Shown piece by piece: positions 35,955 through 45,994 of a stretch of DNA of 64,000 nt. The notes beneath the pieces were generated by a model. That model was not told where the DNA came from. It worked only from the letters and a program-made list of their open reading frames with translations, and did no database searches. Source of the stretch: Polychytrium aggregatum. Lineage: Eukaryota; Chytridiomycota; Chytridiomycetes; Polychytriales. The DNA is taken from contig NW_026516209.1 of the NCBI RefSeq assembly GCF_025602895.1, forward strand, positions 620,001 to 684,000, read 5' to 3'. Each line of letters opens with the position of its first letter. Position 1 is the stretch's first letter. The translations under genes and the position numbers were made by a program.

Positions 35955-37670
35955 ATGAGCTGCCCGAATCCCCAAGAGTTCTGGATGCCCCTCGATCCTT
36001 CGCCCGAGACCAGTGTCAACTGGCGATACAAGGAACTCGACCCCATCACGGCCATCGAGCGCCAGTACCTCGGAGTGATGAATGCCATCCTCGACAAGCC
36101 GCAGTGGTGGGCAAAGCTCAAAGATCCAGAGATCCAGCAAAAGTGGCGGCAAGAGTCCGGCCTCGGCGAGGCGGCCTTCGCGTTGCTCCTCCAGGAGCTT
36201 GCCTGCTATGCGCGAGACTTTATCCAATCCAAGGAGTGGCCCAACGTCTCGCCCATCCCTGCCCACGGCGTCTACATTTCGGATCTCTCGATCAGTCCAG
36301 AGCTGCGCCAGCGGCTCCTCGAGCATGCCGCACCTCTGGAGCAGGAAGCCCTGGTCGAGGGCCGCTGGCATCCCGGCTCCAAGGGCATTGTGCTGGATCT
36401 GGTCCATCCGTCGCCCCACTGCCTTACCTTTGGCAAGTCCCGCTTCTCCAGAAACCCGCAGGCCCTGACCGGCACCGAGACCATTCACTGGCAAGGCACA
36501 CCCGACACTCGCCGAGACATCTCGGCCAAGTATCAGTGGCTGCCCGCCGAGTTTGAGATCGATGCCGACGGCCACGTCTCCATCGCGTCCTACATCAACA
36601 ACCTCCATCCCGAGCTCCACAAGGCTCTCTATGGCGATATCGAGCGCATCTTTGAGGCCATGCTGCCCATGTTCGAGCTCACGGTTGACTCTCTCAACTC
36701 GTCGCCTCGCAACCGCATCGACGTCGACTATGGTAAGCTGTTTGACCACGACCTCTACGACTGGCAGTCCCTTATGTGGAAGGAGCATCGCCAGCAGCTC
36801 CGCAAAGCGCAAGCCGTTGAGGCCGCTCGTGTCGGCGACGACGGCCAGCCCACCACCGGCGATCGTCATCACGACGACGATGAAGATAGCGATGACGATG
36901 ACGATGATGACGATGAGAAGTGGAACTGGATGGATGCCCTCGAAGACACTCGCGAGCTCCACGTTCCCCAGCTGCCCGAGAAGTTTGAGCCCGACGTTCC
37001 CAGTCCCGCCAGATTCCGCGCCCGATCCGTGCAGGCCATCGTCAAGTTGGCCACGATCCACCTCACGCCCGAGAATCCGCGCTATGACGGCGGCAGCTGG
37101 CACATGGAGGGAATGGAGAACGAGGCCATCGCCGCCACAGGCATCTACTACTACGACATGGAGAACATCACCGACTCTGTCCTGCGCTTCCGCCACGCGT
37201 TCGATTCCATGGCCTTTGAGTACAGCCAGAACGACCACCGCGGCATTCTCGAGGTCTTTGACGTCGAAAACGACACCGAGGCCTTGATGGAGCAGGGCCA
37301 GCTCACGGCTTTGCCTGGTCGATGCGCCACGTTCCCAAACTTCCTGCACCACCAGGTGCAGCCATTTGAGCTTGCCGACAAGACTAAGCCAGGCTTCCGC
37401 AAGGTCCTGTGCTTCTTCCTCATCCACCCCCGGAACCACATCATCTCCACCCGGCAGGTTCCTCCCCAGCAGCGATCGTGGCTCCGCCATGCGCTCTACA
37501 GACTACTCCGCCCAAGACTGCCCGAGCTGTGTATCGATCGCATCCAGTACTACCTCGACTGCGATATGTCGATGCAGGATGCCTATGCCCACAGCGAGAA
37601 GGTCATGGACGAGCGCAAGGCAGCCAACAGGGACCGCGACTATGAATACGTTTCACTTTGCGAGCACTAG
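35955..37670 (+). CDS. DUF4246-family protein
   Basis: Large fungal family of unknown function. ATG 35,955 (MSCPNPQEFWMPLDPSP) gives 571 residues in one exon. The frame is open upstream to 35,781, but that part overlaps the transposon remnant and the start chosen follows a ccgcc context. Typical blocks are YQWLPAEFEIDADGHVSIAS, YINNLHPELH, GSWHMEGMENEAIAATGIYY and the C-terminal FCFFLIHP-type segment (KVLCFFLIHPRNHIISTR). A run of Asp/Glu (about residues 305-322) sits in the middle and is encoded by gat/gac repeats. No secretion signal. Some family members are annotated as possible 2-oxoglutarate oxygenases, which I cannot confirm from sequence. Confidence 0.85.
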   Translation: MSCPNPQEFWMPLDPSPETSVNWRYKELDPITAIERQYLGVMNAILDKPQWWAKLKDPEIQQKWRQESGLGEAAFALLLQELACYARDFIQSKEWPNVSPIPAHGVYISDLSISPELRQRLLEHAAPLEQEALVEGRWHPGSKGIVLDLVHPSPHCLTFGKSRFSRNPQALTGTETIHWQGTPDTRRDISAKYQWLPAEFEIDADGHVSIASYINNLHPELHKALYGDIERIFEAMLPMFELTVDSLNSSPRNRIDVDYGKLFDHDLYDWQSLMWKEHRQQLRKAQAVEAARVGDDGQPTTGDRHHDDDEDSDDDDDDDDEKWNWMDALEDTRELHVPQLPEKFEPDVPSPARFRARSVQAIVKLATIHLTPENPRYDGGSWHMEGMENEAIAATGIYYYDMENITDSVLRFRHAFDSMAFEYSQNDHRGILEVFDVENDTEALMEQGQLTALPGRCATFPNFLHHQVQPFELADKTKPGFRKVLCFFLIHPRNHIISTRQVPPQQRSWLRHALYRLLRPRLPELCIDRIQYYLDCDMSMQDAYAHSEKVMDERKAANRDRDYEYVSLCEH

Positions 37671-37881
37671 ACCGACAGCGCGGTCGTGAGTGAACTGCAG
37701 TGATAATACAGCATTTAGAATCCGATAGGACACTGCTTGCACCATCGCTGCATCGCTGCACTCCGTTGTACTGCAACCGTGAGCCACGATCGCCTCCCCG
37801 AGATGGCCCTAGCGGAGCATATCGCCTCAGGTGTTGCGCCGTGCAAGTGTTGCGTCATGCCAGCATCGCTCGAGCAGAAGT

Positions 37882-37909
37882 TAGAGGCAATCCAATAAAA
37901 AACGGGACA
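37882..37909 (+). repeat. Left terminal inverted repeat of the Mariner-Fanzor element
   Basis: TA-initiated end with inner AAAAAACGGGACA. The following about 65 bases, up to the transposase ATG, are also conserved at the corresponding end of the short inverted copy (43,796-43,889). Confidence 0.88.
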
Positions 37910-37967
37910 CCCGGGTTTTTGACCATTCATCGAATATTTTGTTACCCAATGTTATCGCGCGCTGGCC

Positions 37968-38900
37968 ATGACCATTCGCCACACATCCGACTTTCGCACC
38001 GCCGCATTGCGATGCTACGCCCTCATCCATAGCCTGCGTAAGGTCGCCTCCATATTCAGTGTATCCAAGAGCACCATCCATCGATGGCACCGAGGATGCA
38101 AGCTGGATGACCCATCCCGGGTCCCAGCTCGCAGATCCACTTTCTTCGAGCAGGCATGTCCAGTCATTCGCACCCTGATTGAACAGGACCCGTTCCAGAC
38201 TGGTCCTGTGTTGCGATGCAAGCTCGAGTCCATCCTCCAGAGGAAAGTTTCACTCTCACTCTGCCACACTGCCATCCACCGAGCAGGTCTCTCACACAAG
38301 AGGGCAACACACCTCTACAAGTCCAAGCGACTGGATGAGCGAGTGGCACAGTTCAGGGACCAGGTCCGCTCCATCGACCCACGACGATTCGTTTTTGTCG
38401 ATGAGACAGGGATCAGACGAACCACCTTTCCGCTCTACGGGTACTCGCCCAAGGGTGCTCCGCTTCGCCAGTGCAATCACATGAAACACAAGTCTGTCTC
38501 GGCTGCATTTGCCATCAACCACTCTGGTGTGCTGCATCGCATGTACATCCCCACATCATTCAAGACACACTCGATGGTCGAGTTCTTTGAGCGAGCGAGC
38601 TTCCCAGACGACTCTGTGATTGTGATGGACAATGTCAGCATGCACAAGACAAGGGCTGTCCTGGACTGCATCGATCGCCGAGGGTGGTCAGTGATCTTCA
38701 CCCCACCTGCTTCACCCGACTTCAATCCCATCGAGAACTTCTTTGGGATTGTGAAGCACCAGTACAGGAAGACAACAGTGCTGAATGCGTCCGAGGGGTT
38801 CAGAGTCGGGATGGTGACCCTGTTTGAGTCTGCCGTTCGGAGAGTGCTTCCAGATGTCTTCCCACGGCTGATTGAGCGAGCGATGCGCTTCTGGGGTTGA
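37968..38900 (+). CDS. Tc1/mariner (IS630-type) DD34E transposase
   Basis: 310 residues, ATG at 37,968 inside the conserved sub-terminal region. The N-terminus is a helix-turn-helix (RKVASIFSVSKSTIHRWHRG) followed by a second DNA-binding segment. The catalytic triad is complete. The first Asp is in RFVFVDETGIRR, the second in VIVMDNVSMHKTRAVLD, and the Glu in SPDFNPIENFFGIVKHQYRK. Thirty-four residues separate the last Asp and the Glu, hence DD34E. The frame is intact with no stop, so it is a candidate active enzyme. It lies upstream of, and in the same orientation as, the Fanzor gene. The gap of 251 bp contains a TATAAA box. Confidence 0.93.
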   Translation: MTIRHTSDFRTAALRCYALIHSLRKVASIFSVSKSTIHRWHRGCKLDDPSRVPARRSTFFEQACPVIRTLIEQDPFQTGPVLRCKLESILQRKVSLSLCHTAIHRAGLSHKRATHLYKSKRLDERVAQFRDQVRSIDPRRFVFVDETGIRRTTFPLYGYSPKGAPLRQCNHMKHKSVSAAFAINHSGVLHRMYIPTSFKTHSMVEFFERASFPDDSVIVMDNVSMHKTRAVLDCIDRRGWSVIFTPPASPDFNPIENFFGIVKHQYRKTTVLNASEGFRVGMVTLFESAVRRVLPDVFPRLIERAMRFWG

Positions 38901-39017
38901 GTTCCCTCCAATCACGCCGCCATTTTCGCGTTCACATCCCTGGCTTGAACCTCTCGGCGATTTTTGAACAGGGTCACTTCCCCAACCAGCCCGCGCAGAC
39001 GGGTTCCTGCTCTCGGG

Positions 39018-39023
39018 TATAAA
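39018..39023 (+). promoter_or_regulatory. TATA box candidate for the Fanzor gene
   Basis: Sequence tataaa lies 129 bp before the Fanzor ATG in the gap between transposase and Fanzor; spacing and position fit a separate promoter for the Fanzor. Confidence 0.5.
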
Positions 39024-39151
39024 TGTCCCACCTTCGTCCTGCTGCTTTCTTCCCTCATCTCGCCTTGATCTGATCATCGCGCCATTGTACGATAAAAAAA
39101 GTCTCTGCTCTGACCAGTACCACTGGCAGGCATCCAGCATCCTCTGCCCCC

Positions 39152-41523
39152 ATGCCTCCGAAGCGTAAGGGTACCGGTGATGGCCAGCCTCGGCCACCCA
39201 GGCCCAAGAAAGCCAAGTCACAGTCGGAGCCTGTCTCTGGTTCGTATTCTGATCCCACACATGCTTGTTTCTCTGTTGCTCCGTCGCTCACCATCACTGC
39301 TTCTGCAGATCCAATGGATGTCGATCCCACCGAGCCTGGTCCATCTACTTCCTCGAGTACCGGCAAGCGATGTCGCCAGTGCGATGGCACCGATCACGAA
39401 CGTTGCAACACCAGCAAATGTCCCAAATACCGGCCCCTCAAGAGTTCTGTCGTCCCACTCGTGGATGGAAGGTCATCGGCCCCTCAGTTCAGCTGCTTCA
39501 AGCAGACCATGGATGGCTGTTGTCTCAATCCCGCTCTCCGCGACAAGATCCAGGCCACCGTCGAGGCCATGACCCAGATCCAGTTCGAGGCATCCAGGCT
39601 GCTCAACCTGCACATCCTCCGGTGCATCGAGCAGGATCTTCCCGTCCCCGTCATCTCCAAGTCCACCCCTGCTTTCATCCGCCAATGCTTCACGATTGTC
39701 GAGGCCGATGCCCTCTCGACGGCCAGGGATACCAAGAAATACAACGAGCATCTGGTCGCTTCCTTTCGCGACTACCAGACCACTCGGCACGCAGACCTGC
39801 CTCCGGCCCCTCGTCTGCCTGATGGTGCTCACAGTCAGCTTCTCACACTGGCTGTCAATGCCTATGCTACCAACTGCACCACCCACCTCGACCTGGCCTA
39901 CTGGCGACTCCTTCGTCGCTTTTGTGCTGCCGTCTTCCCTGCCAACAAGCACAAGCACGAAGCCATCGAGGCCTGTCTCGAGCTCTTCGAGAAACCAGGG
40001 CCGACTCCACCCAAGGCCGATCTCGAGTTCCTCTATCCAGACTTTGGCCACGTCCTGGACGAGTTTCGGTACAGCAGCGACCAGGACCGCTTCCGGGCCC
40101 TCCATCGCCTCTCACACCATGTGGGAATCCTCGCCCGGGACAAGATGGTCGACGATGTCCACAAGTGGATCGACTGTGACATGCCCGCCCTCCGAGTCAC
40201 CGAGCTGCAGCGCCAGGCCAAGCTGGACAGGCTCACTACCCAAGGCATTCCCTCCGACGACAAGAGGTTCACCACGGCCAAGTCTGAGCTCGGCACCACC
40301 AAGGCCAAGATCAACAGGCTGGCATCCAGGATCAAGTGGGCACTCAAGCAGCTCGCCGTCGACACTCCTCCGGCCGTGTGCACGATGGTCCCTCTGTGCA
40401 CTACAAGGCCAAATACATCAAGATTGACACGGTCACTCTTTGGCAACTCCTGGGTCCAAAGAAGCGCCTTGGCCTCACCAGGGACATGCTCAAGGAAGAA
40501 GGTGAGGACGGTGTCAACAACCAGGATCGTCTCTGGCGCAGTTGCTTCAAGCTGCGTAGTTCCCTCTTCCAAGAGCGGGACGTGAACAAGAAGCTGTTCA
40601 ACTACGAGATCAGCACCGATGGCATTGGATGCACCATCGGCCTCGTCAAGTTTGTGCGTCGAACCGATCGCACCGAGACCATCGAGCCTCCTCCGACTGC
40701 CGAGCAGCGTATCCAGGCCCACATCGGCGACCCAGACCCCAACCGCACCACTTGGATTGGCATCGATCCTGGAGTCGGCTCCATCTTCACGACGGTCATC
40801 CAAGCACCGGGCCACCAAGACGAGGTGGTCTCGTTCTCCAATGGCCACTATCAGCACATGTGTGGCCATACGTTCAACACCAAGTGGCACAACACCATGA
40901 AGTATCGACTCAGCATCGAGACCTGGATGTCGACCACCCCCTCGCCCAAGGTGTCGTCCTCGGAGGCCTTCAAGGTCCATCTCACCCATGTCCTGCGACC
41001 GGAGCTGCGAGTGCAGCTCGATTTCCACCTTGGCAAGAAGGCCCGCCACCATCGCTTCACGGGCCACAAGAGGCGCCAAGTGGCCGTCGACAGGATGTGC
41101 AAGGCCGTCCTGAAGCACGCCCCGAGGGAGAATGATGTGGTGATCGCCTTTGGCAATGCATCATGGCGACAGGGCAAGGGCTATGCATCCAGCCCTCGGA
41201 GGCAGCGGTTTGCTCAGTACTTTGAGCAGTTCGAGCACCACCGACGCCGTCCCAATCACCATCATGGAAGCGTCAAGGTAGTCTCGACGAACGAGTTCAA
41301 CACCTCGCAGGTGTGCTCCAACTGCCTGGAGCCAGTTCGGTTGGAAGGACTCGATGCGCCCAGTGTTGCGAATTCCCACTTTGTCAGGAGCTGCAAGAAT
41401 CCCAGCTGCCGGACAGTGTGGAATCGCGACGTCAATGCGGCGCGCAACATGATCACAGTGTGCAGGTCGATTGTGGAGACCGGAGGGCGACCGGCGGTCT
41501 TCACTCGGAGGCTGCCAAAGTGA
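39152..41523 (+). CDS. Fanzor: eukaryotic TnpB-like RNA-guided RuvC nuclease (one frameshift)
   Basis: About 790 residues once the break is allowed for. The N-terminus (MPPKRKGTGDGQPRPPRPKK) is basic and nuclear-signal-like. Near residue 72 there is a zinc-knuckle-like CRQCDGTDHERCNTSKCP. A helical middle follows (WALKQLAVDTPP). RuvC-I is TWIGIDPGVGSIFTTVIQ, with Asp at 40,765. Downstream comes the Fanzor-like VVIAFGNASWRQGKGYASSP, which lacks an acidic residue at the usual RuvC-II Glu place. Next is STNEFNTSQVCSNC, with a Glu at 41,293 that may be the relocated catalytic residue. A zinc ribbon CSNC...CKNPSC and RuvC-III VWNRDVNAARNM (Asp at 41,428) end the domain. The frame changes near 40,370-40,390, as if one base were lost. 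No normal intron fits there: a GT...AG pair spanning 32 bases exists but is too short. The copy may be inactive, or the break may be a sequence error. Confidence 0.88.
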
Positions 41524-41622
41524 TCTGTTTTATTTCTTGTGGCTTTGCTAGACGCGAGCACAGCACATACTACTGTTCATGGAAACGGCTATATTGTCCC
41601 GTTTTTTTCTGAATAAAGTGTA
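41430..41622 (+). ncRNA. Candidate omega-RNA region (Fanzor 3' end to right terminus)
   Basis: In characterised TnpB and Fanzor systems the guide RNA scaffold comes from the 3' part of the nuclease gene and the right end of the element, with the guide read from the flank. Here the tip of the Fanzor gene, the about 70 bp after its stop, and the right TIR are retained in both shortened copies (43,578-43,889 and 35,583-35,800), which have lost nearly all protein-coding sequence. That retention suggests a function for the segment, or simply retained transposition ends. No transcript evidence. Confidence 0.5.
41595..41622 (-). repeat. Right terminal inverted repeat with AATAAA signal
   Basis: Reads TGTCCCGTTTTTTT then CTGAATAAAGTGTA on the plus strand. 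AATAAA inside the TIR (41,612-41,617) can serve as the poly(A) signal of the Fanzor transcript and is also present in the 35.6-kb copy. Confidence 0.8.
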
Positions 41623-41966
41623 TGCTCGCCTCTGCCAAGCGACACCCAGAGAGGCATATGTCGAATCCTGATCGAAGCTTCGAATCTGCACGCATAGCCC
41701 GAACGCTGGCCTCACGTTTCGACAGGCCAGCACTTGAATCAGATGACGTCGACGGTCAGCCCACTGCCGTCGGGTCGACGTCACCAAAGCCATGTGTGCA
41801 GTTTGCCCCCGACGGTCGGCCAGCGGAAAACAAACGTCCTCGCGACTGAGCAGCACCTCTGCCTCATCCGACTTTGCTCTTGCTCTCCACTCTGCATTGA
41901 ATCGCCCACCGCTTCGTATATTTGACACTCCCCGGCAATAGTTGCTCTTGCTCCTGGACCGCCCCG
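41623..41966. other. Flank between the transposon and the transporter gene
   Basis: No gene seen; should contain the transporter promoter. The first bases (tgctcgcctctgccaagcga) are the position from which a Fanzor guide would be transcribed if read-through past the right end occurs. Confidence 0.4.
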
Positions 41967-43402
41967 ATGTTTACTGGCTTCTCTGCTGTGGCTCTTCTGG
42001 CAATCTTCTCGTCGGCCCTGCCTGTGCTCATATGTCACTCCAAGCTCGTTCAAGTTCCCATCTACCTTTCCTCGACCGCCATCCTCGTCGTCGAGTGGAT
42101 CAAATTAGTGACTATGACAGCCATGCTGGCTCGGCAAATGAAGCTCTCGACTGGCAGTTGCTCGATACTGCGGCTCTGCGATGAGCTCTTTGGCCTTCGG
42201 TCGGACTGGAAAGCCGCCATTCTACCCTCGGTCCTGATGGTCACCTCTACCAACCTGCAGTACTTTGCCATCCTCTACATGGGAGTCCCGCACTTTGTTC
42301 TGGCTGCCCAGCTGAGCACCGTAGCCACCGCTGCGCTGCGCTGGTGGATCCTGAAGCGGACCTTGTCCTGGAAGAAGAGCATTGCCCTGGCGGCCATCGT
42401 CGTCGGAGTCATGGTCGTGAATCTCAACCACGCCTTCCTATCGCTCATCGTCCGACTGCTGTACTTCTCACCCGAGTGGATCGAGGACGCGGCTACGGGT
42501 GCTCTCATCTTGGCTTGTCTACTTGTCGGCTCCTTCAACACCTGGTACGTTCCTTGGCCGCTGGCATGGGCGCCAGGTGGGAGAGAGACCGTGGGAACAA
42601 GTATATGACTGCACGAGAACAGTCGCTTTGGAGGCTCGGACATACCCTGCTGCCCGCCGTCGCCGGGGTTCCAGTCGATACTCCGCATCTAACAGCATGA
42701 TTGATGTGACGGGCTCGGGCTCGGACTAAATCTCCGTCTCTAGGTACGATGGGCCTGCACGGAGTTCGTCTCCAAGCACTTTGGTTCGGGGCATTCAAAT
42801 GAGTGTCTTTGGAGTCCTTGGCGCGGCTCTTCTTGGTAACGTGAGCCGCTTATTGCGTATAGCAGGCAGGATTGAGCTTGAGTACAGCTCTCTATCGTGC
42901 CTCGGCTAACATGTGCTTGACCGCCACAGCATTGTGCATGGACAGCGACATCATCTTGGAGAACGGAATGTTTCACGGCTACACCATGTGGACGGCAGCC
43001 ACGATTCTATGCCACAGCCTCGGCGGATTGCTGCACGATTCCGTCCAAAGGTTCGTTTGGCTGCGTCTCCATTTGCATGTGGCTCTGCTGCTATGGTCGA
43101 CCAAGTCGATGTCGGCCCGGATGATCTCTTCCCATCCTTACACAATTGTCGTTCATGGCTTCGCTCTGTGTAGATGCGCTGGCAGCCAAGCCCGCAGTCT
43201 TGCCACCTCTCTGTCGATCCTCATCGCTGCGGCCATGTCCTTCTATCTGTGGGGCTTTGAGCCTTCGCCAGCCACAGTGTGTGGTGCAGTATTTGTCATT
43301 GGTGGGACTTGCGCATTCGGGCTTTACGAGGGCCAGAGTCCGCGGCTCCCACACACCATCGACGAGGTCGGCGACTTGAAGAACCGCGAGGCCCAAGTCT
43401 AG
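41967..43402 (+). CDS. Nucleotide-sugar transporter (SLC35A/UDP-galactose transporter family), multi-exon
   Basis: Golgi membrane antiporter type, about ten helices. ATG 41,967 (MFTGFSAVALLAIFSSALPV). Family blocks are YLSSTAILVVEWIKLVTM, ILPSVLMVTSTNLQYFAILY (the NNL-Y-like region of helix 3), VPHFVLAAQLSTVATAALRW and SWKKSIALAAIVVGVMVV. Exon 1 ends at 42,544 (gtacgt) inside FNTW. Following exons carry MSVFGVLGAALLGN, then DIILENGMFHGYTMWTAATI and LCHSLGGLLHDSV. The last exon carries SLATSLSILIAAAMSFYLWG and FEPSPATVCGAVFVIGGTCA, followed by the hydrophilic C-tail (stop 43,402). Helix content and order match the SLC35A pattern; the exact sugar is not deducible. The gene lies between the large and the short inverted copies of the transposon. 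Confidence 0.85.
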
Positions 43403-43577
43403 AGCCAACGCATGGCCACGAAGCCGCCGAGTCCTCGGCTTCAGCTTTGGCCTGCGGAATCATGGATGGCTGTGCAGGCTTGCCAGCCGCGAATCCAACT
43501 TCGAAATACCGATCCGGATCAGCAGACAGCGTGCACTCCATCTCCAGGAGCACGATTTGTCGACGTGAACCATTCTG

Positions 43578-43889
43578 TACACTGTATTCGGGGGGGGGGA
43601 AATGGGACACTTGCCCACGACCCATGTGTCAGCGTAGTCTGTGATGGCATGCGTCCAACTGTGCCATAAGAAATACAAACAGATCACTTTGGCAGCCTCC
43701 GAGTGAAGACCACCGGTCGCTCTCCGGTCTCTACAATCGACCTGCACACTGGTTTCGGAGTGCCAGCGGTGAATGGTGCTCTTGGACACACTGGCGAAAG
43801 GTCATGGCCAGCGCGCGATGGTATTGGATAACAAAACATTTGATCAATGGTCAAAATCAAGGGTGTCCCGTTTTATTGGATTGACTGTA
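43578..43889 (-). mobile_element. 312-bp MITE-like deletion derivative of the Mariner-Fanzor element
   Basis: The ends are TACACTGTATTC at 43,578 and ACTGTA at 43,889, both TA-bounded. Read on the minus strand from 43,889, it first shows the left TIR and sub-terminal region, up to ATGACC of the transposase. A short deletion follows, then GTGTCCAAGAGCACCATTCA (transposase HTH codons, V-S-K-S-T-I-H-R-W-H). The sequence then jumps near 43,740 to CAGTGTGCAGGTCGATTGT, the last 25 codons of Fanzor, followed by its 3' tail and the right TIR. It codes for no functional protein. It could be mobilised in trans by the intact transposase 2 kb away. Confidence 0.9.
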
Positions 43890-44111
43890 ATACACTTGGC
43901 GAATGGGACATCGATCAGCCACCCACTGCATGCCAGATGAGCAATTGCAGCGACATGTTCCAGCACCATCGCACTCCACATCGCAGCTGTTTGCTGCGGG
44001 AAGGTTTCCGTTAGTTATAACAGAGTCCGTCAGTATTTTAATGTAGCTGGCCTAAGCAGTACACCATAGCCGAGCCCATCGGCGTACATCGAGTCAGACC
44101 GTCGCGGTCGA
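43890..44111. other. Intergenic region 3' of TSR3
   Basis: Short AT-richer segment between the short transposon copy and the TSR3 stop. No gene seen. Confidence 0.4.
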
Positions 44112-45994
44112 CTATCTACGCGAGCCGCGATAGCCAGAGCGGCCTCCTCCACGTCGTTGAGAGTATGATCTTGCCGAAGGCGCTTTCCGCCCCTCTTCCT
44201 CTCCCTCCTTTTCTTCCTCTTCTTCCTCCTCCTCTTCTTTCTCCTCCTCTTCTTCCTCTTCCTCTCCCTCCTCTTCATCGTCTTCATCGTCTTCCTCGTC
44301 ATCATCGGCGATGGTGTTGCCGAAGCGGTCGACTTTGGGGCTGGCTCTGTCATCATCCGATTTCAGGATAATATTCCCCAGACGATCGACGAGCTGCTCT
44401 TCCTGGGTTTCGTCTTCACCGCTTTCGTATTCAGGCAGATCAGTGCTGCCGTAGTTGGAGCCTTGAAGCCCCGCCTCGCCTTCGTTCATGCGCTCTGCGT
44501 TCGTAGATTTGTCAGTCCCCAGATACGGCGTGTCGTACCAATCCATCCACTGCGATAGCCAAGCCAGCGGAAGGATGTGCCAGAGACCTTACCTTGTCGC
44601 TCAGCAGCAATGGTTGCAATAAAATCATTCTGCACCCGAACTACATCGGCCGAGTCGGTGCAGGTTTTGTACCGCTCGAGCAGTCCTCTGTTGCCACCCA
44701 GCCAAGATTCGGTCGACGTGAGTTGTCTCATCCTCCGTTGACCCAAGTCGAACTCGCAGCAGTTCGCAGCTTACTCGTTGAGTTCGTGAAAGGCGTGGCC
44801 CCACTTGAACTTGCTCATGACTTCATGACCATACTCGTCCAACCCTGGTGTTGCGGGTCATTGACGCTGGTTAGCTGTTTGCTCGCTCGAACTGCATCCT
44901 TGCCATCCAGCTGGAGCCATACCGCAGATGAAAAGTGCCGCAGCCAGGGCTTCTGCACAGTTCAGCTTGTAGGGCTTGCCATAGTTCACCGGATTGGCAG
45001 CGATGAGGTAGGGTACTGTTGATGCCAGAGATGAGATGGTGAGCCCATTATCGGGATAGCATACGGCCCAACATTGCGCGGCAGGATGCATAGGTAGAAC
45101 GCTATCGCTTTCGAATTGCCTGCGACAGCCATCCTCCTCGAATTGGTTCCTACATAGTCGCTCGTGCGGGGATTTGATCCGGTCAAATGGGACCTCGTCG
45201 ATGCGGGCCCACGAGCAGTCCACGACACAGAGACCGTTCTGCTCCAGGATATTCTTGTCGGCGGGAGAGACTGACTTTTGACCTGTCGGGCTAGCAACCG
45301 CATGCGCAATAACGAGTAAGCCAACTCAGTGGTTGTCGCAGATCAAGCCCGTGCTTGGAGCGAACAGATCGGCTGCGAGCCGTGGACTTGCACTCGGACG
45401 TACGTCATGACAATGCCCTTGAAGCGGTTTCCGACTCGCAGCTGCTTGACAACGCCCATGCGAACCAACTTCTTTCCGGAGCATCGTTTCGGATCGCAGT
45501 GATCAAAGTCCTGGTGATGGCCAAGGTGGCAAATACAGCATCGATATCAAAGCGCCGGCTGATGAGGGGATGCATGCATGGCAATCCCAGTGAATCCTTT
45601 TTCAGGTTTACGCCATTATATATGAACTATGGCTCCTTGGACAGACGAGTTGAACCCTCAACCCTCCACTCGTTCGTGGCAATAGAAACGCACCCACATC
45701 GCTAGTGGCATTGGGATGTCAACTGTTCCAGGACATTCAGGGATTAGCTCTTCGTTGCTTCGTGGGACGGCAATGCCACAGTCGAATTTGCTGAGGCTCC
45801 CGCCGTGCTTCCTGGCTGCAGCGCCAGAGCAGCTTATACAAACGCAATCCTGGATCTGGGCACATACCTGTCTGCTCGTCGTTTTCGGCATCATCCCGGC
45901 TGGGACTGCCTTCTCTCGGCTCAGGATGCACATCGTGGTGGTGGTGGTGCTGCTTGCTTCCGTAGTATCTGTTCTGGCGGCCCGACCGTCCCAT
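44112..45994 (-). CDS. TSR3: TSR3: 18S rRNA aminocarboxypropyltransferase, multi-exon
   Basis: Transfers the acp group from SAM to the hypermodified pseudouridine of 18S rRNA, a late 40S maturation step. ATG 45,994 ([20 protein letters not shown]). Family blocks appear in successive exons: [10 protein letters not shown] (45,700), [19 protein letters not shown] (45,470) and [11 protein letters not shown] (45,420). Next come [20 protein letters not shown] and [13 protein letters not shown] (45,220), then [20 protein letters not shown] and [10 protein letters not shown] (44,970). The last are [14 protein letters not shown] (44,800) and [20 protein letters not shown] (44,660). The C-terminal exon (44,546-44,112) ends in a long Asp/Glu run and an RGG-like basic tail, both common in fungal TSR3. 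About seven introns. Just upstream of the start is a GTGGAT hexanucleotide array. Confidence 0.9.

Follow-up and report, generated by a model that had tools for sequence, protein, structure and literature searches.

A Tc1/mariner element carrying a Fanzor1 nuclease in the chytrid-like fungus Polychytrium aggregatum, with TTA, the predicted motif of the nuclease, at its left junction

The stretch of DNA analysed here (the window) comprises 64,000 nucleotides from Polychytrium aggregatum, contig NW_026516209.1, positions 620,001 to 684,000. It carries a Tc1/mariner unit of 3741 bp (3.74 kb) at window positions 37882-41622, which encodes a DD34E transposase and a Fanzor1 nuclease. The unit was compared with further copies in the genome, 39 of which, including that of the window, were aligned. 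The following features were assigned, with the evidence for each:

37881-37883, + strand: left-junction TTA, made up of the flanking T and the TA; predicted target-adjacent motif (TAM) of the Fanzor, from counts of T at left ends
37882-37909, + strand: left terminal inverted repeat including TA, from repeat comparison; start point of 39 of 39 aligned copies
37968-38900, + strand: open reading frame (ORF) of the DD34E transposase, 310 amino acids, intact here; ORF, Pfam match and a ratio of nonsynonymous to synonymous polymorphism (pN/pS) of 0.37 over 39 copies
39152-41523, + strand: Fanzor1 gene, about 790 amino acids in intact copies, frame broken near 40409 here; pN/pS 0.43 over 39 copies
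41510-41622, + strand: 3′ region, expected guide-RNA scaffold, closing with the inverted repeat and TA; suggested by its position and by 14 of 14 short derivatives
41595-41622, + strand: right terminal inverted repeat including TA, from repeat comparison and the count of right-end patterns
41620-41622, + strand: GTA of the right junction, predicted non-TAM, from the G preceding TA in the listed right ends
41623-41642, + strand: right flank, predicted guide of the window copy by analogy with the Fanzor SpuFz1
43578-43889, - strand: 312-bp non-autonomous relative (ghost) that combines ~100 bp of the left end with the 3′ region, with the second right-end type and a preceding T

The TA dinucleotides that bound the unit lie at 37882-37883 and 41621-41622. 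In the imperfect terminal inverted repeats, 20 of the outer 28 bp match, and a core of 13 bp is perfect. The transposase carries the triad D145/D221/E256, and the 34 residues between D221 and E256 place it in the DD34E group. It matches Pfam DDE_3 with an E value of 1.3e-23, and its N-terminus gives a weak match to HTH_23 (E 0.0017; 18.5 bits, under the Pfam cut-off of 24.6). The Fanzor gene lies 3′ of the transposase gene on the same strand. In the window copy it loses its frame near residue 419 (about position 40409) and appears as two overlapping ORFs. An initial annotation of this stretch had described inverted repeats of about 28 bp with TA at both ends, an uninterrupted DD34E transposase and a downstream Fanzor in the same orientation within a complete element. 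The repeats and the single 310-residue transposase ORF were borne out, as were the position and strand of the Fanzor; the break in the Fanzor frame had been missed.

To classify the nuclease, the intact copy L013 was used (individual loci and contigs are cited by L and C numbers). It fits the motif D-X(125,275)-[TS][TS]-XX-C4 finger-X(5,50)-RD, with a gap of 178 between D and TS and of 5 between the last C and RD. This is the Fanzor motif of Bao and Jurka (PMC3627910). A DPG signature at D539 and an alternative glutamate, E715, six residues ahead of the C4 zinc finger (C722), were also present; these two features define Fanzor1 (PMC10711439). Pfam detected a Cas12f1-like TNB domain (6.5e-9), and a profile built from three sequences matched the SpuFz1 structure 8gkh over the C-terminal half (9.4e-8), GtFz1 reaching just 0.097. 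By its sequence, the nuclease thus belongs to Fanzor1 and is a relative of SpuFz1. In PDB searches with single sequences no Fanzor and no significant match was found, a protein profile search returned nothing at an E value of 0.001, and one scan for viral relatives confirmed none. An AlphaFold2 model built from three sequences had a mean pLDDT (predicted local distance difference test score) of 39.6, too low for use. Four proteins were found with the Fanzor as query, and the two with an organism name come from Polychytrium aggregatum; their matches cover 30% (66% identity) and 36% (52% identity) of the query part. Together with a flagellar CFAP74-like gene in the window, these relatives support the chytrid-like host that the initial annotation had proposed. 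Both of them, the annotated host proteins P0002 and P0004, resemble the Fanzor over a piece at one of their ends, which is either a gene-model artefact or a capture.

The genome searched comprises 64.7 Mb in 418 contigs. In a DNA search with the unit, the best 39 of 1310 candidates were scored, so that the copy number is a lower bound. The unit is present at at least 39 loci (the window and 38 others), 32 of which have the full span of about 3741 bp. The left TA was found at 39 of 39 loci and the right TA at 36 of 39, including L044 through its other right end. Beyond the element ends the flanking sequences are unrelated, the exceptions being pairs of copies with the same flanks, L047, and L013 with L042, whose right flanks have an 81-bp element-like stretch in common. 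Six pairs of copies have flanks that are 99.6-100% identical on both sides and are probably two haplotypes. Genome-wide, exact end patterns occur at 240 left ends and 267 right ends, and 36-base tags (at most 3 mismatches) from the middle of the Fanzor gene and the 3′ part of the transposase gene occur 259 and 138 times. For end pairing, 92 left ends (86 from 100 listed ends with TTA and 6 of the 17 others) were compared with the 100 listed of the 267 right ends. A partner was found for 67 of the 92, at a distance of 3.18-3.79 kb for 53, 1113-1114 bp for 4 and 283-385 bp for 10.

These data strongly support that transposase and Fanzor travel as one mobile unit. The initial annotation had claimed as much, and both genes lie between the same TA-flanked ends. 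It had also proposed a genome search for further full copies, which yielded 31 other essentially full-length loci with common ends; the copies clearly do not end elsewhere, and the two genes co-occur between the same ends. It is extremely unlikely that transposase and Fanzor are chance neighbours or that their arrangement is an assembly artefact. Two contigs, C52 and C81, stop at a copy or within one, and fine-scale mixing of variants among the copies suggests imperfectly resolved repeats, as an artefact might produce. On the other hand, 53 of 67 left-right pairs measure 3.18-3.79 kb, all 57 Fanzor matches that were scored extend over the full length, and the same ends are joined to differing flanks at 28 distinct sites. 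A chance neighbourhood was ruled out by the ends common to the copies.

Some copies show unusual relations to each other. The left flank of the mixed copy L047 matches one locus and its right flank another (with L018 and L034). The right flank of L014 recurs at C112:1204569-1204595, its left flank being absent among the scored matches. These patterns, like the termination of C52 and C81 at or within copies, reflect either ectopic recombination or misassembly. Among the 39 aligned copies (L009-L047), linkage between common variants is gone past 20-50 bp, and between the members of the six same-flank pairs the element diverges by 0.03-3.5%, compared to 0-0.4% for 500-bp flanks. This points either to intense gene conversion over short tracts or to an artefact of assembly or polishing.

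Across the aligned copies, pN/pS was 0.37 for the transposase and 0.43 for the Fanzor, and both genes are under purifying selection. A single frame can be read through in 21 of 39 copies for the transposase, in 30 of 39 for the Fanzor and in 16 of 39 for both. In a protein search the best 57 of 1264 Fanzor candidates were scored; all 57 cover residues 1-790 and 48 are free of stops, figures that are biased to intact copies since these are the top-scoring matches. Among the matches listed, 22 of 27 end pairs under 3.7 kb carry the Fanzor tag. In 21 of these 22 shortened copies the deletion lies left of the mid-Fanzor tag (within 4 bp), a side that includes the first half of the Fanzor gene. Internal gaps of at least about 20 bp occur in eight aligned copies (L040-L047, of which L044 also bears a different right end), in all eight within the first 1016 bp, the transposase region. 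The transposase thus appears to be lost more readily than the Fanzor in copies, a trend to be read with the caveat that related copies inherit the same deletions and that one tag may be better conserved than the other. In one numerous size class the transposase matches stop near residue 262, shortly past the catalytic glutamate. This class may be a spreading subfamily with transposase supplied in trans.

The sequences of 14 short copies at 12 distinct sites were obtained. They consist of 665 + 450 bp of left and right end (4 copies), about 99 + 217, 209 + 169, 99 + 169 bp and similar combinations. In all 14 the right end is kept over 169 bp or more, the left end over as little as 99 bp. Ghosts of Spizellomyces punctatus likewise retain the right-end RNA and the motif, and the SpuFz1 RNA extends 14-15 nt past the element (PMC10432273). 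By its position and its retention, rather than by folding statistics, a guide RNA is likely encoded at the right end. The three right-end types fold with a stem that joins the terminal GUGUA to the nearly invariant CAUACUAC region, the register shifting slightly, and two-sided changes were seen in 3 of 23 pairs of the consensus fold. An Rfam scan of positions 36000-45000 gave no match.

At the left junction, 223 of the 240 exact left ends in the genome have a T directly before the TA, a set that includes allelic copies and is not made up of independent ends only. The same T was found at 35 of the 39 aligned loci and at 26 of 28 distinct sites (P about 7e-22 versus the window, where a T stands before 302 of 2448 TA, or 12%). 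The set of 28 sites leaves out 11 loci, namely the second members of pairs (L010, L020, L021, L024, L026 and L032) as well as L015, L016, L034, L044 and L047. The mirror base, an A at the first position of the right flank, was observed at 5 of 28 distinct sites and at 13 of 77 in a larger set, 39 members of which were chosen from TTA ends. The right flank shows no mirror A bias, and the T preference is therefore one-sided. At the right end, GTA was found in 100 of 100 right ends among the matches listed (267 in total). The 12 ends of a second right-end type have G before TA in 10 cases and A in 2.

In SPu-1, the element of SpuFz1, a conserved CA ahead of the left repeat together with TA equals the measured TAM, CATA, and a change of any TAM base abolished cutting (PMC10432273). 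Since CA plus TA gives the measured motif there, by the same logic the TAM of the window-family Fanzor should be TTA. A TAM of TA only was judged unsuitable, because TA is present at both element ends and cannot separate an empty from a filled site. With TTA, the empty site T-TA-flank would be cuttable and the filled site G-TA-flank would be spared.

The inner bases after the left TA (left positions 3-4) are usually CA. Where they are not, they equal the first two bases of the right flank at 6 of 14 distinct sites, with 1 in 16 expected. These matches (L023, L028, L029, L041, L051 and L060) comprise 6 of 9 first sites and 0 of 5 fetched later. At sites with CA, the right flank starts with CA in 15 of 63. 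The matches may reflect that part of the insertions duplicated 4 bp, TANN, or that the element inserted into TACA sites.

We consider it reasonably probable that the DD34E transposase and the Fanzor1 travel together in a retention system based on a TTA TAM, in which the Fanzor cuts empty sites and the element is restored. Assuming this, the transposase would cut the element out, and an empty site T-TA-flank would be left or recreated. An RNA of the right end, with the right flank as guide, would direct the Fanzor to TTA plus flank. The Fanzor would then cleave the empty copy, and a filled chromatid or homologue would serve as repair template to restore the element. The filled site would escape cutting due to the G in place of T before the right TA. 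Ghosts, as deletion derivatives, would use transposase and Fanzor produced elsewhere. That the Fanzor may help the element persist at its site had been put forward in the initial annotation. The TTA/GTA asymmetry, the right end kept in derivatives and the selection on the Fanzor lend indirect support to this idea; no empty site was found at the 34 sites searched. A broader reading, which we offer tentatively, is that the family represents a natural, still-coding case of a eukaryotic cut-and-paste transposon whose own RNA-guided nuclease holds it in place. The TTA on the left and the GTA on the right would be the imprint of this activity, since insertions would survive only where the Fanzor can cut the empty site but not the filled one. 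Fanzor-only families without transposase, like SPu-1, would be later stages of the same history.

Several results weigh against retention. Of the 240 left ends, 17 lack the preceding T, and the copies L015, L016 and L026 (3 of 39) lack the right TA. The excess of copies with only the Fanzor intact (14) over those with only the transposase intact (5) is not significant (P 0.06). Folds of the right end are no clearly better than those of shuffled sequence (z -1.75, -0.78, 0.92 and 0.62). No empty site was observed among 34 joined-flank sites (14, 9 and 11 complete sites in three genome searches, in which the best 40 of 782, all 26 and all 27 candidates were scored). Comparison therefore does not prove that TA was duplicated or that the T comes from the target. 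This null result itself speaks neither for nor against retention. Two matches that cross the joined point (L013 and L025) were traced to right flanks resembling the element's own left end and were ruled out as empty sites. Second contigs that show both flanks have them one element length apart. The sole support for the TA as a true target duplication is the reading frame at L060, a ghost within an apparent host exon: in our own reading, the frame is kept only when T and one TA are assigned to the target. A Pfam search with the exon peptide gave no match, which leaves the target gene without a homologue check.

A further point on this side is that the Fanzor could be a co-mobile passenger with another benefit, the TTA resulting from an asymmetric target preference of the transposase. 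We regard this, the main rival account, as rather unlikely. The repeats are imperfect (20 of 28), so that the two ends may indeed be handled differently. However, the first base of the right flank has no mirror bias (A in 5 of 28), and the equivalent conserved bases in SPu-1 belong to a measured TAM (PMC10432273). The passenger role also fits poorly with the larger number of Fanzor tags compared to transposase tags (259 versus 138), although tag conservation may differ. It is still less probable, and in our view improbable, that the Fanzor acts mainly in trans or on other elements, with copies beside other mariner-like ends guiding the cutting or tagging of those families. Judged by eye, the right flanks of L013, L025, L041, L056, L077, L094 and L097 begin with such ends, but most of the 77 right flanks are not end-like, and landing in the TA at another element's end is a simpler account of the seven. 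The predicted guides of these seven copies would match the ends of other families.

The element type as such is already known, since a Mariner with Fanzor1 has been in print since 2013, and the window family is therefore a further case of it (PMC3627910). A literature search, with most subscription papers outside its reach, found no such element from a chytrid-like fungus and no such junction test. In the paper that showed the activity of Fanzor, its biological role is called unknown, and the main fungal case lacked a transposase within the repeats (PMC10432273). In the present genome a single family unites transposase and Fanzor with ghosts and a probable guide-RNA end, and the junction signature predicts the TAM ahead of experiment. 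The question whether Fanzor holds transposons in place thereby becomes directly testable.

The window family can be set beside three kinds of known system: the elements PUl-1 (PUl standing for Pythium ultimum) and PGv-1; SPu-1 from Spizellomyces punctatus, a zoosporic fungus as is the host here; and TnpB of IS200/IS605 and IS607, which has a homing role. PUl-1 and PGv-1 likewise unite a Mariner-type transposase with Fanzor1 in one element, which is flanked by TA and ends in Mariner terminal inverted repeats (Bao and Jurka 2013, PMC3627910). They come from other hosts; PGv-1, from a Phaeocystis virus, is described as single-copy and encodes a third protein (PMC3627910). The window family, in contrast, has a high copy number, includes ghosts and shows a junction motif. 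SPu-1 is similar in its Fanzor1, its inverted repeats with TA flanks, its numerous ghosts with a retained right end and the conserved bases ahead of its left repeat (Saito et al. 2023, PMC10432273; PMC3627910). It differs in its length of about 2.1 kb compared to 3.74 kb (PMC10432273, PMC3627910), in that no transposase was found between its repeats, and in having CA (TAM CATA) instead of the T (predicted TTA) seen here (PMC10432273). TnpB of IS200/IS605 and IS607 also employs a right-end RNA with the flank as guide and a motif at the left flank; these elements are bacterial and use other transposases, in contrast to the DDE cut-and-paste enzyme here (PMC10711439). A further difference is that in the window family TA recurs on the right, which leaves part of the motif in the filled site.

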